Assembly (NCBI GenBank): GCA_902776955.1
Contig: CACYSG010000019.1
Coordinates: 1-39,216 of the forward strand
Origin: an uncultured Bacteroidales bacterium
GTDB taxonomy: Bacteria > Bacteroidota > Bacteroidia > Bacteroidales > Muribaculaceae
DNA: 39,216 nt
Reading direction: 5' to 3'
This document shows, piece by piece, positions 1,232 through 10,783 of the stretch. Every line of letters starts with the position of its first letter. Within the stretch, counting starts at the first letter, position 1. Below the pieces are notes generated by a model. That model saw only the letters and a program-made list of their open reading frames with translations. It had not been told where the DNA came from and searched no databases. The translations under genes were made by a program, and so were the position numbers.

Positions 1232-1304
1232 TGGAGCATAGCGGACTCGAACCGCTTACCTCAACACTGCCAGTGTTGCGCTCTACCAGATGAGCTAATG
1301 CCCC
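1232..1304 (-). tRNA. tRNA-Ala(GGC)
   Basis: The reverse complement folds as a complete 73-nt cloverleaf. The acceptor stem is GGGGCAT/ATGCTCC with discriminator A, the D arm is GCTC-ATCTGGTA-GAGC, the anticodon stem CAACA/TGTTG encloses CTGGCAG (anticodon GGC, reading GCC for alanine), and the T arm is AGCGG-TTCGAGT-CCGCT. The CCA end is not encoded (CAA follows the discriminator), so it depends on the CCA-adding enzyme, which is itself encoded in this window. Confidence 0.95.
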
Positions 1305-5764: not shown

Positions 5765-5796
5765 TTTGGTCAGTTCGTTAAAATTACCTAATTTTG
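5765..5796 (+). promoter_or_regulatory. Promoter of the GtrA-like gene
   Basis: TTTGG at 5765-5769 and TAATTTTG at 5789-5796 match the Bacteroidetes -33/-7 consensus with a 20-nt spacer. The start codon at 5817 lies 20 nt downstream. This promoter supports the later start for the gene. Confidence 0.8.
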
Positions 5797-5816
5797 CACG
5801 GTTAAAAACTGTTATC

Positions 5817-6293
5817 ATGAAGATTGACAAAGACGAAGCAAGACAAACGGGCATTCAACTGCTCAAATATGCTGTGATTGGCGTGCTGAACACGCTCATC
5901 ACGCTTGTCGTCTTCTATGTGATGAATACCAAGATGGGTCTTTCCTATGGTATATCCAACGTTGTCGGATACATCTTCGGTGTCATCAATAGTTTCCTAT
6001 GGAACCGCAACTGGGTTTTCAAGACCAAGAACAACTTCCGCCGTGAATTGCTGCTGTTTGTTTGCGGTTTCTTGATTTGTCTGGCCCTGCAGCTCTGTGT
6101 TAGCTGGATTCTGCTCGAAGGCCTCGGCTGGAAGAATCTGCCTGATGACATTATCCCGTTCTTCCCGATGGAGAAGGCTGGCCAGAACATCGTTATGATT
6201 GTCGCTATGGTTGCCTACACCCTGGCCAACTACGTCTACAACCGCACGGTCACCTTCCGCGTTGACCCCAAGGGTGACAAACTCAAGTCATAA
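5817..6293 (+). CDS. GtrA-family membrane protein
   Basis: A 158-residue polytopic membrane protein with four predicted helices (about residues 14-35, 43-62, 77-98 and 120-141). Between helices 2 and 3 it carries the family's NSFLWNRNWVFK segment, and near the C terminus the matching NYVYNRTVTF. GtrA-like proteins are thought to help move lipid-linked sugars, such as undecaprenyl-phosphate glucose, across the inner membrane for surface glycan modification. No glycosyltransferase partner is adjacent, so the substrate is unknown. The ATG at 5817 is chosen because a good promoter ends at 5796. Confidence 0.85.
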   Translation: MKIDKDEARQTGIQLLKYAVIGVLNTLITLVVFYVMNTKMGLSYGISNVVGYIFGVINSFLWNRNWVFKTKNNFRRELLLFVCGFLICLALQLCVSWILLEGLGWKNLPDDIIPFFPMEKAGQNIVMIVAMVAYTLANYVYNRTVTFRVDPKGDKLKS

Positions 6294-6315
6294 CACATAA
6301 CATCACGACAAAACA

Positions 6316-6343
6316 AAAGCGCGCCTTCATCGAGGCGCGCTTT
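6316..6343. terminator. Bidirectional Rho-independent terminator
   Basis: AAAGCGCGCCT at 6316-6326 pairs perfectly with AGGCGCGCTTT at 6333-6343 around a 6-nt loop. It lies between the convergent GtrA-like and CCA/MGMT genes, with A-rich and T-rich flanks that serve both strands. Confidence 0.85.
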
Positions 6344-6352
6344 CTAATGCTA

Positions 6353-8275
6353 TCACTTGTGTTCTTTCTCTAGATTCAGCAGGAATTGCTTGATGTGAGG
6401 CCCTGAGGCGTAGCCCCCGAGGCTGCCGTCGGCGTTGATGACGCGGTGGCAGGGTACGATGATAGACACGGGATTGCAGTGGTTGGCTCCCGCAACGGCG
6501 CGTGAGGCCTTGGCGTTACCCATGCGGGTAGCTTGCTGGCCGTAGCTGATGGTTTCGCCGTAAGGTATCTTCTGCAGTTCCTCCCATGCTTTGAGTTGAT
6601 GTTCCGTGCCCTTGAGATACAGGGGAAGCGAGAACACCTGCCGTGTGCCGTCGAAGTATTCGCCGAGTTGCTTGACGCACTGCGAGAGTAGGGGAGTGAC
6701 GGCCTCAACGGGCTTCAACTTCAGTTTCTTGGCAATCTGGTCGAGTTCATCACCGCTCCAGCCCACATAAGCGATTCCTTGGGTGGTGCTTGCGATGGTC
6801 AGTACGCCAGCTGGCGTGTCCATCGTCGTGTAGCACAGTTCGTCCTTGTGTAGAGGCTCGATTTCCAATTCCTTGGCTTTGTCGAGCATCAGTTGATAAG
6901 CCGAAGCATAATCGTTGCTGATGATTCCGTCCAGGATGGCATCCTTGATGGCGTCCTTGATATATCCCACCGAGCGAGAGGGCGTGAGGCCGAAGGTAGT
7001 CATGATTTCCTCGCCGTCAACAGGAGGCTGGAAATTGCGTACTCGGTCCTTCTCCTCGATGTCCACGAGCTTGCGCTTCACCAGGTCAAAGTTTTCGCGG
7101 AACCGCTGCACCTTGTGCTGGTTCTTGCTGGTGATGTCGGCCTTACACAGGGTCATCAGGTCGTCGATGTCATCGCCTGCATCAAACAGCAACCGCCTGA
7201 CGGCGCTGTCGGTCACCTCGTCCTCGACAAGGGCGATGGGACGCATGTGCAACCCGACGAGTTTTTTCACATATTTCATGTGGTCGTTGAGCGGAAGGCG
7301 CATCTTGGCAAAGATCTTGGGAATCATCTTCTCGCCGATGAAATTGTGGTTGTGGAAAGTCCAACCCAGTTGAGGGTCCCATCGCTTGGTGCGGGCCTTG
7401 CCCACGTCATGAAGCAACGCGGCCCAGCGCAGCCACACGTCATCCGACGACTGCGCCACGTTGTCGAGCACCTGCAACGTGTGCATGAAATTATCCTTAT
7501 GGCCGCGGCCGTTGACGGTCTCGACGCCTTTCAGGGCGGCAAGTTCCGGGAAAATGAGCGGGAGCAGGTCACACTGGTCAAGCAGCATCCATCCTCGTGA
7601 AGGATTGGCGGAATGCATGATTTTCATCAGCTCCTCGGCAATGCGCTCGCGGGTGATGATGTTGATGCGCTTGGCGTTTCGACGGATGGCCTCAAACGTC
7701 TCGGGGTAGATGTCAAAGTCCAGCTGTGTGGCGAAGCGTATGGCGCGCATCATCCTCAACGGGTCGTCGCTGAAGGTGATGTCTGGGTCGAGTGGGGTGC
7801 GGATGATGCGGCGGCCCATGTCGCCGATGCCGTCAAACGGATCGAGCAATTCGCCATAGCGCTCCTTGTTCAGGCAGATGGCCATGGCGTTGATGGTGAA
7901 GTCGCGGCGGCGCTGGTCGTCATCCAGGGTCCCGTCCTCAACGATAGGGTTACGGCTCTCACGACGATAGGACTCGCGGCGCGCTCCCACAAACTCCAAT
8001 TCCCATTGACGGGTCTTGACCTGAGCGGTGCCGTAGGTGCGGAACACCGATAGGTGTGCGCGCTTGCCCAAGCGGGGCGCGACGGCTTTGGCCACCTGGA
8101 TGCCGCTGCCGACGGTAACGAAGTCCATGTCGTTGCTGGGGCGGTTCAGGAAGATGTCCCTGACATATCCGCCCACGACGTAACATTCGCGGCCCAGTTC
8201 ATCGGCTACGTTACCCACAAGTCGCATGATGGGCAAATTGATGTGCTCTGCGATTTTTTGACGGTTTAAATCCAT
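6353..8275 (-). CDS. CCA-adding tRNA nucleotidyltransferase fused to O6-alkylguanine-DNA alkyltransferase
   Basis: A 640-residue fusion. Residues about 20-480 are a class II CCA-adding/poly(A) polymerase-type enzyme: GGYVRD and DMDF (nucleotidyl-transfer site), DDQRRRDFTINAMA, DDPLRMMRAIRFA, then an HD domain with LLHDVGK near 288. It adds CCA to tRNA 3' ends. Residues about 485-640 form a complete MGMT domain, with PCHRV around Cys609 (the methyl-acceptor Cys), the GETISYGQ helix before it and GGYASG after it; this repairs O6-alkylguanine in DNA by suicide transfer. The frame is open across the joint. I set the start at 8275 because a -7 box lies just upstream; the ATG at 8344 would precede transcription. 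An internal Met485 could give free MGMT. Confidence 0.93.
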   Translation of the reverse strand: MDLNRQKIAEHINLPIMRLVGNVADELGRECYVVGGYVRDIFLNRPSNDMDFVTVGSGIQVAKAVAPRLGKRAHLSVFRTYGTAQVKTRQWELEFVGARRESYRRESRNPIVEDGTLDDDQRRRDFTINAMAICLNKERYGELLDPFDGIGDMGRRIIRTPLDPDITFSDDPLRMMRAIRFATQLDFDIYPETFEAIRRNAKRINIITRERIAEELMKIMHSANPSRGWMLLDQCDLLPLIFPELAALKGVETVNGRGHKDNFMHTLQVLDNVAQSSDDVWLRWAALLHDVGKARTKRWDPQLGWTFHNHNFIGEKMIPKIFAKMRLPLNDHMKYVKKLVGLHMRPIALVEDEVTDSAVRRLLFDAGDDIDDLMTLCKADITSKNQHKVQRFRENFDLVKRKLVDIEEKDRVRNFQPPVDGEEIMTTFGLTPSRSVGYIKDAIKDAILDGIISNDYASAYQLMLDKAKELEIEPLHKDELCYTTMDTPAGVLTIASTTQGIAYVGWSGDELDQIAKKLKLKPVEAVTPLLSQCVKQLGEYFDGTRQVFSLPLYLKGTEHQLKAWEELQKIPYGETISYGQQATRMGNAKASRAVAGANHCNPVSIIVPCHRVINADGSLGGYASGPHIKQFLLNLEKEHK

Positions 8276-8321: not shown

Positions 8322-8352
8322 TTGTGCATGTTGACAAAAAACATTAATTTTG
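8322..8352 (+). promoter_or_regulatory. Promoter of rho
   Basis: TTG at 8322-8324 and TAATTTTG at 8345-8352 are separated by 20 nt, a good Bacteroidetes promoter. It predicts a leader of about 260 nt before the rho start codon. Confidence 0.7.
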
Positions 8353-8359
8353 CAACGCA

Positions 8360-8620
8360 AAATGAACCCTAAAAGGTGTTTTGTGGCGAAAACATCAATT
8401 CTTTAAACCCCAGAGATTTCCCGTATTACAATTATCGCGGTATTGGCAATCCATCTTAACTTTTGTCATTCACGTATTCTGGCATTTGGGATTGATGAAA
8501 ATAGCCTAAATTATTTTTTAACGATAAATCAATAATTAATGGACTGTCATGCACGGGAGTGCATGATAAAGTGTGGTGCTGGATAGTGCCGCATTTTCCT
8601 CAAACATTTATAATTACAAT
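8360..8620 (+). promoter_or_regulatory. Long 5' leader of rho with a hairpin
   Basis: No coding frame is evident between the promoter and rho. The leader contains a perfect hairpin, TCATGCAC-GGGA-GTGCATGA, at 8547-8566, about 55 nt before the start codon. Elsewhere rho is controlled by its own product acting on its leader, so a similar role is possible here; that is inference. Confidence 0.5.
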
Positions 8621-10783
8621 ATGTATAACATCGATGAATTGAGTGCGATGAGCGACGATCAACTTCGTGAGATCGCTAACTCCATGGGTATCAAAAAAAT
8701 TGATTCATTGGAACATGATGCTCTCGTGTACGAGGTTTTGGACCATCAGGCAGTTGCCGAGGCCAAGGCCGAGACTGCCATTACGCCTGAGCCCCCACGC
8801 CGTCGCCGTGAGCGCATTCGTCAACCGGCCGCCCAAGCCAAAGGCAATGAAGTCATCAAGGATGACGCGGTAGCCACCAAAGACAAGAAAAAGACCAAGG
8901 AAAATAAAAGCAAAAAGAATAGTAAAGAGGAACCGGTGATTGTCGCTGACAATAACGAATCAGCAAAAGCCGAAAACGTAATTGTCGAGGACAAGACTGC
9001 CGAACCCGTTTTGGAGAATCCCGAAGTCGTGGAAAAACCCAAACGCAAGCGCGGACGCCCATCGGCTGCCGAGAAAGCGGCGCGTGACGCCTCGCTCCTG
9101 GCGACAGAAAACGAAGCGGCTGCCAACGAAGTGGCACAACAACCCGCCGTGGAGCCCCAAGCCGAGCCCGAACCCGTGGCCGAAAAGCCAGCTCGCCGTC
9201 GTAGCCGCAAGGCCAAGCAGCAGGTAGAGGTTGAGCAGCCCGTTCTTCCGTTTGATAATATGGAAAACGAGTTTGAACCGCAGCCCGAGGATATGACTGA
9301 TGTCGAGCCGCCGATGGACGAGCAATACGAAGTCATGGACGTAGAGGATATGCCCGTTGAGCAAAATGATGTTCCCTCATCTGAGCCGTCGATGCGCGAG
9401 AGGGAAGACGTATCATTGAATTCCTTCTTCAATACTGGCAGCGGATTCACATTCAAACCCCGCTCACAGGAAGAGCGCGAAGAGGCCATGAGAAGGGCCG
9501 AGGAACAGCGCCGCAAGGCCGCCGCCGAGGCTGCCGTGGCACCGATTGTCATCCAGGAGCCTAAGGTTGTCAAGGAGAGCAAGAACAAGAAACGCAAGAT
9601 GAAGCAGCAACAACAGCAACAGATTGCCGAGGTGAATCCCTATCTTGACCAGCCTTATAACTTTGACGGAATACTCGAGGCGCAAGGCGTGCTTGATGTG
9701 GCTCCCGAGGGATACGGCTTCCTGCGTTCCAGCGACTACAACTACCTCACCTCTCCCGATGATATCTACGTGCAGCAGTCCCAAATCAAGGCTTACGGCC
9801 TCAAGACCGGTGATGTCATCGAGGGAACGATCCGTCCCCCCATGGAGGGCGAGAAATACTTCCCGTTGAGCGAGATTCGACTGATTAACGGACGCACACC
9901 CGCCTACGTGCGTGACCGCGTGCCGTTCGAGCATCTGGTACCCTTGTTCCCTGACGAGAAGTTTGATTTGGTCAGCAAGCGTCACCCGACCGTTTCTCAG
10001 CGCGTGGTGGACATGTTCTCTCCCATCGGCAAGGGACAGCGCGGATTGATCGTGGCACAGCCCAAGACCGGTAAAACCATGCTGCTGAAGGAAATCGCCA
10101 ACGCCATCTCCGAGAACCACCCCGAGACCTACATGATCATTCTGCTCATCGATGAGCGTCCCGAGGAGGTTACCGACATGGCCCGTAGCGTCAATGCCGA
10201 GGTCATCGCTTCAACCTTTGATGAGCCGGCCGACCGCCATGTCAAGATTGCCGACCTGGTGTTGAGCAAGGCAAAACGCCTGGTAGAGTGTGGTCATGAC
10301 GTGGTGATCCTGCTTGACTCGATTACACGTCTGGCACGTGCCTACAACACGATTGCACCGGCTTCGGGCAAGATCCTCACTGGTGGTGTGGACGCCAACG
10401 CGTTGCAGCGCCCCAAACGTTTCTTCGGCGCCGCGCGTAACATCGAGGGCGGTGGCAGCTTGACCATCATTGCTACGGCACTGACCGAGACCGGTTCCAA
10501 GATGGATGAGGTCATCTTCGAGGAATTCAAGGGAACGGGTAACATGGAGCTGCAGCTCGACCGCAAGCTGTCCAATAAACGTATCTTCCCCGCTGTCGAT
10601 GTCATGGCATCGAGCACCCGCCGCGATGACCTGCTCTTGCCGCAGGATACATTGAACAAGATGTGGATTATCCGCCGCTTCCTCAGCGACCGCACCTCGG
10701 TCGAGGCGATGGAGTTCGTGAAGGAGCGCATGGATCGCACACGCGACAACGAGGAGTTCCTCCTCACGATGCAACAGGGATAA
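8621..10783 (+). CDS. rho: Transcription termination factor Rho with a large disordered insertion
   Basis: 720 residues, far longer than the usual ~420. Residues 1-50 are the Rho N-terminal helical domain. About 52-336 are a low-complexity, highly charged region rich in Glu, Lys, Ala and Pro, with an AT-hook-like KRGRP and a QQQQQ run. About 337-430 are the RNA-binding cold-shock-like domain, followed by the hexameric ATPase with Walker A AQPKTGKT near 481, Walker B VVILLDS and the Q/R-loop regions. Rho uses ATP to pull RNA and stop transcription. Long Rho insertions in gut Bacteroides have been reported to drive condensate formation. I chose ATG 8621 because it gives the normal MYNIDEL N terminus. 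Confidence 0.95.

Follow-up and report, generated by a model that had tools for sequence, protein, structure and literature searches.

Why a tRNA-maturing enzyme and a DNA repair protein should be encoded in one frame is the question raised by a locus in the 39,216-nucleotide stretch of DNA analyzed here (the window; contig CACYSG010000019.1 of assembly GCA_902776955.1), which comes from an uncultured member of the family Muribaculaceae, apparently of the genus Sodaliphilus. The first-pass annotation of this DNA had described an uninterrupted frame with a complete CCA-adding enzyme followed by a complete O6-alkylguanine alkyltransferase (Ogt/MGMT type). This was borne out on the minus strand, where all five Pfam domains of the 640-residue product scored above cut-off and the PCHRV motif with Cys609 lies where it had been placed (Table 1). 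In most genomes of a bacterial genus, a single chain joins two household enzymes of different pathways, and we consider it probable that the protein is bifunctional, with a suicide DNA-repair domain riding on an essential housekeeping gene.

Table 1. Features of the fusion gene and its surroundings (positions in the window)
Feature	Position	Strand	Details
CCA-adding enzyme/MGMT fusion CDS	6353..8275 (including stop)	minus	640 aa; ATG at 8275; stop TGA, then TAG
Nucleotidyltransferase head, PolyA_pol, residues 31-159	7799..8185	minus	GG 35-36, D49/D51, R123-R124-D125; Pfam
RNA-binding neck, PolyA_pol_RNAbd, residues 186-247	7535..7720	minus	Pfam
HD domain, residues 263-348	7232..7489	minus	H289-D290; Pfam
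Joint, residues A467-G490	6806..6877	minus	24 residues in 76/77 genus-type distinct fused proteins
Internal ATG, codon 485	6821..6823	minus	Met in 38/85 distinct fused proteins, not conserved
MGMT N-terminal ribonuclease-like domain, Methyltransf_1N, residues 481-552	6620..6835	minus	Pfam
MGMT DNA-binding/catalytic domain, DNA_binding_1, residues 560-637	6365..6598	minus	Pfam
PCHRV active site, acceptor Cys609	6440..6454	minus	Sequence and alignment
rho, divergent neighbor (Rho_RNA_bind, ATP-synt_ab)	8573..10783	plus	Domain matches
GtrA-type membrane protein, convergent neighbor	5766..6293	plus	
Terminator-like hairpin just past the fusion stop	6315..6344	minus	12 pairs, 7 G-C

An in-frame ATG further upstream, at 8344, would give an alternative product of 663 residues, but several homologues (e.g., L112, L017, and L023) carry a stop at, or within two codons ahead of, residue 1. 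The joint is free of stops at residues ~470-482 (window ~6830-6868). The N-terminal part has the complete head, neck, and HD set of a class II CCA-adding enzyme (tRNA nucleotidyltransferase) as well as its fold, and differs from such an enzyme in carrying a C-terminal MGMT and in scoring under the NCBIfam CCA equivalog cut-offs (355 vs. 438.8 bits for the best, TIGR02692, and likewise below for the other CCA models listed). It is predicted to be a class II CCA-adding enzyme, with a specificity that would be for CCA rather than for CC, A, or poly(A). The C-terminal part passed the NCBIfam model TIGR00589 (ogt; 105.7 bits vs. a cut-off of 46.4) and has both MGMT domains, the PCHR active site, the arginine finger, and the fold, from which alkyl transfer from DNA to Cys609 is predicted. 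Unlike Ogt/MGMT, this domain is not free. The only nearby start Met, codon 485, had been suggested as a source of free MGMT; the ATG does exist, but it is unlikely to serve so as a general feature because the residue varies among fused proteins (Table 1). AlphaFold2 gave both folds with confidence (mean pLDDT 91), and Foldseek matched the model to CCA/A-adding enzymes (3wfr, 1vfg, and 3h37) and to Ogt of Mycobacterium tuberculosis (4bhb), while the overall pTM of 0.67 points to uncertainty in how the two modeled halves lie relative to each other.

In the window genome, which is 89.7% complete, there was one match to the whole fusion protein, one to DNA_binding_1, and none to Ada_Zn_binding (PF02805), a domain also absent from the 640-residue protein by Pfam. 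An encoded CCA end was absent in 29 of the 32 distinct tRNA genes predicted by aragorn (from 30 loci of 44 tRNA matches). These single matches, together with the tRNA genes that lack CCA, indicate, subject to the tenth of the genome that is missing, that the fusion very probably is the CCA-adding enzyme of this cell and also its only O6-alkylguanine alkyltransferase. A second, distant CCA-type enzyme (33-36% identity; L153 and L261-L265) is carried by 6 of the 101 genomes of the genus (G578, G594, G233, G017, G005, and G045), four of which also have an intact fusion.

The same domain order was sought in related genomes and was found widely. The fusion is complete in a single frame in 77 of the 101 genomes of the genus, including G043, in which a stop was flagged in the match, yet the retrieved frame reaches the end of the MGMT match. 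In five more, the joint between CCA tail and MGMT lies in one frame although the gene is incomplete at another point (G585 and G046, which stop at contig ends; G028, broken and likewise at a contig end; G596, by a frame break inside the CCA part; G045, with the head missing), so that 82/101 have a single-frame joint overall. Eleven genomes carry an unfused CCA enzyme that ends in a stop close to the joint. The rest comprise one cut by a contig end (G598), one with the distant CCA-type enzyme only (G017), and six without any match, these being 62-83% complete. Beyond the genus, the fusion was found in two other genera among the matches listed for a family sample of 297 genomes, namely g28 (5/5 sampled) and g23 (3/9 sampled; five further genomes were unfused, the eight examined being all but G169). 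No additional CCA-MGMT fusion was among the matches listed for the order (344 genomes) and phylum (296 genomes) samples; in these searches, as in the family search, absence means absence among the matches listed, where a weaker case could be hidden. Of 470 matching plasmid records, none covered >80% of the query at one place. An 898-residue CCA frame in G343 was rejected as a fusion because it continues into another gene across an assembly gap (letters X). MGMT as such is common across the family (match in 71 of 79 genomes), by the listed lengths mostly as short separate frames. The first-pass annotation had also offered a simple read-through after stop loss; confined to this assembly, that reading is refuted by the genus-wide conservation, whereas an old in-frame fusion of neighboring genes is a likely origin.

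Both halves are conserved among the 85 distinct fused proteins, drawn from 112 fused records, that were aligned. In the MGMT half, PCHR (C609 and H610), R592, N601, and E636 are present in 85/85 and Y578 in 84/85, and we take these to be the acceptor Cys, arginine finger, Asn, Glu, and Tyr of the active site. Of the distinct fused proteins that reach the head region, 80/80 have GG35-36 and D49 and 79/80 have D51, presumably as the GG motif and catalytic carboxylates. Among the 535 pairs passing the dS filter, the five closest had dN/dS of 0.02-0.10 for the CCA half and 0.09-0.24 for the MGMT half; the medians over all 535 pairs, in many of which dS is near or >1, were 0.14 and 0.26, respectively, with a largest MGMT value of 0.85. 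Purifying selection is acting on both halves. The MGMT/CCA rate ratio had a median of 3.0 in fused proteins (interquartile 2.6-3.6; 1,652 pairs) and was 2.5 for free MGMTs of the same genus (interquartile 2.3-2.6; 14 pairs from 6 genomes), indicating that the fast rate is mostly MGMT's own, with a possible small loosening of MGMT constraint through fusion.

The history of the fusion was approached with two trees made by a quick method. On the CCA tree (93 rows, several long branches), the 11 CCA-only genomes nest among the fused ones in groups of nine and two, each with support 97, and the branches that set them inside have support 81-92. Two such nested groups mean two losses of the MGMT half on that tree, and we regard it as likely, though not certain, that this half was lost twice within the genus. 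The label "fused" takes six changes on the CCA tree, three of which are forced by strongly supported branches. On the MGMT tree (109 rows, with 30 fused domains of the genus picked by hand), the fused domains fall into two groups, one from the genus (support 74, with one free row next to it) and one from g28 and g23 (support 94). The linkers fit the same two kinds: the single genus-type protein that departs from the usual length between A467 and G490 has 25 residues, while the eight g28/g23 proteins have 28-36, and the MGMT stretch G490-559 has 63-64 residues in g28/g23 proteins against 70 or more. There was possibly more than one fusion event. A single clade of all fused MGMTs was not rejected (AU p 0.515; 38 rows).

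A possible precursor state is seen in one genome, G086 of the genus g27, in which separate cca and MGMT genes overlap by stop and start in ATGA; its MGMT is not clearly placed with the fused MGMTs on the MGMT tree. In G070 (g11), an MGMT gene lies ~0.9 kb downstream of cca. Seven of the 11 CCA-only genomes have a separate MGMT (G226, G593, G039, G040, G047, G015, and G592); among the remaining four there is a single weak MGMT match, in G327, and none in G588, G580, or G583. Fission was rejected as the source of the free MGMTs, since none of the seven groups with fused MGMTs: six fall in a clade with G077, G065, G080, and G545, and the seventh (G226), in which MGMT stands behind an AraC-like helix-turn-helix scoring below the Pfam cut-off, is found among AraC-type MGMT proteins. 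The free MGMTs of the genus are of other kinds and are therefore not the freed fusion domain. A tblastn search for MGMT remnants behind cca in the CCA-only members gave a best E of 0.28 within up to 2,500 bases downstream (92 bases for G047 and 1,143 for G583). The opposite case, a protein with HD, tail, and MGMT but an absent nucleotidyltransferase head, is found in G045 (L148, 3796-5307, plus strand), a single fragmented genome on which the case rests and which carries a second CCA-type enzyme (L265; 34% identity). With 11 relatives lacking the MGMT half and one lacking the CCA head, the link between the halves is not obligatory.

According to the explanation that we prefer, a short linker connects the only CCA-adding enzyme found in the genome to the only O6-alkylguanine alkyltransferase found there, which comes second in the chain; both halves would be active, each with its usual chemistry, and would operate largely independently. 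The fusion would have arisen when a translationally coupled cca-MGMT pair became a single frame. It would then have been kept for the sake of supply: the repair protein, stoichiometric and single-use, is made as steadily as the product of an essential housekeeping gene, and since each reaction consumes an alkyltransferase, such a steady stoichiometric supply matters. The separability of the halves, as observed in the 11 CCA-only relatives and the headless G045, speaks against a needed partnership. The near-invariance of linker length in the genus exceeds what a free tether needs and counts against this explanation, although common descent may account for it.

It is also quite possible, though less likely, that the fusion is itself neutral and simply inherited, with both halves active. 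This reading differs from the preferred one solely in why the fusion is kept, and the odds of the two overlap. In its favor, either half can be missing alone, and in the same order one genome has MGMT joined to LpxB and another has it joined to a SLOG-type protein, an indication that proteins readily tolerate a C-terminal MGMT. A merely neutral fusion is harder to reconcile with its presence in three genera, possibly from several events (linkers of 24-25 vs. 28-36 residues), with both halves conserved; the point from several genera is in turn weakened by the AU result, which leaves one origin unrejected.

The first-pass annotation had further suggested that the fusion may link tRNA-end repair to alkylation damage. 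In one form of this idea, irreversible alkylation of Cys609 would destabilize the whole chain, and the level of CCA enzyme, and with it translation, would drop with the alkylation dose. Alkylated human MGMT is reported to be destabilized and degraded (PMC10814553); the joint is kept in most of the genus with a linker of near-constant length, and the fusion carries the only CCA enzyme and the only MGMT found in the window genome. Against this, there are relatives with CCA only and one without the head, the degradation is described there for the human protein and not for bacterial Ogt, and the model leaves it uncertain how the halves are placed. We judge such functional coupling unlikely. Its more specific version, a one-way fuse in which alkylated Cys609 depletes the sole CCA enzyme proportionally to the DNA alkylation and slows tRNA 3'-end repair until the damage is over, would be very unlikely. 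The suggested link gained no support, considering the relatives that lack either half, the pTM, and an MGMT active site of the ordinary kind.

Another form has the MGMT half, recruited by the CCA enzyme, repairing alkylated tRNA, which we hold to be highly improbable. MGMT is tethered to a tRNA enzyme, and Gln at residue 596 (window 6488-6490), four residues past the arginine finger and in the helix that follows it, is typical of the fused MGMTs of the genus (27/30 rows vs. 1/71 free rows) and could be a change in substrate contact; the window protein departs from this and has Gly here. Residue 595 presumably corresponds to Gly131 of human MGMT. It is Ala in 29/30 fused genus rows and Gly in 8/8 fused g28/g23 rows, and free rows have Ala in 41 and Gly in 29 of 71; with Ala and Gly in fused and free rows alike, there is no sign of RNA adaptation. 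For the human protein, RNA repair is impeded by a clash of the 2'-OH at Gly131, according to a review (PMC10814553). Lastly, a sequencing or assembly artifact, by which a stop was lost or a frameshift introduced at the joint, has a negligible chance of being correct, for even though the window genome is fragmented (123 contigs), the same frame recurs in 77 of the 101 genomes of the genus and in eight genomes of two other genera.

MGMT fusions are already known, and it is the CCA-enzyme partner that is new. The first-pass annotation did not know this as a standard fusion, and no report of such a partner was found in the open-licence literature searched, at the level of title or abstract start for the items listed. 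The AGT-EndoV protein of Ferroplasma acidarmanus likewise joins an alkyltransferase to a second enzyme that acts on nucleic acids; its partner is a DNA repair nuclease, and hence the functional link is direct (PMC10779285), in contrast to the tRNA enzyme here. Ada is a known kind of MGMT fusion as well (PMC4437013). Ada and the AraC-type/MGMT proteins also carry MGMT at the C-terminus of a multidomain protein, but their partner is a regulator, and Ada_Zn_binding is without a match in the window genome. If the halves of the fusion are independent, as in the bifunctional, hitched-domain explanation that we favor, this would be a clean example from nature of how a one-shot repair protein can be supplied by attachment to an essential gene; if they communicate, DNA alkylation would directly set tRNA maturation. 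Automatic annotation may name one half only, and an MGMT or a CCA gene may thereby be missed.

Around the fusion gene, the terminator-like hairpin (Table 1) is one of four such matches in the whole region, no excess over the mean of 3.9 in shuffled sequence. A Bacteroidetes-type promoter pattern had three matches in the window and none in front of the fusion gene. The window also contains a tRNA gene (1232-1304, minus strand), assigned to tRNA-Ala by aragorn, without encoded CCA.

Several other unusual arrangements were encountered. In the phylum sample, the CCA open frames of L276, L278, L279, and L281 extend ~90-320 residues before the head, and L277 is similar; Pfam gave no domain in the extensions of the first four, which may be real or chance open frames. 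The LpxB fusion (G556; L232, 3947-5611, minus strand) is a 555-residue frame with a complete MGMT and all domains above cut-off, and the SLOG fusion (G531; L236, 2980-3930, minus strand) is a 317-residue frame of SLOG cluster4 and the MGMT DNA-binding domain. What appears by eye to be an AlkA-like DNA glycosylase is fused to MGMT in a 393-residue protein of G094 (L238, 2302-3480, plus strand). In the genus g29 of the same family, the CCA enzyme has a HAD-type phosphatase domain as an N-terminal partner: HAD_2 (residues 7-181) precedes PolyA_pol (238-363) in L164 (766-2805), and the same fusion was recognized by reading in L163 (3287-5380).
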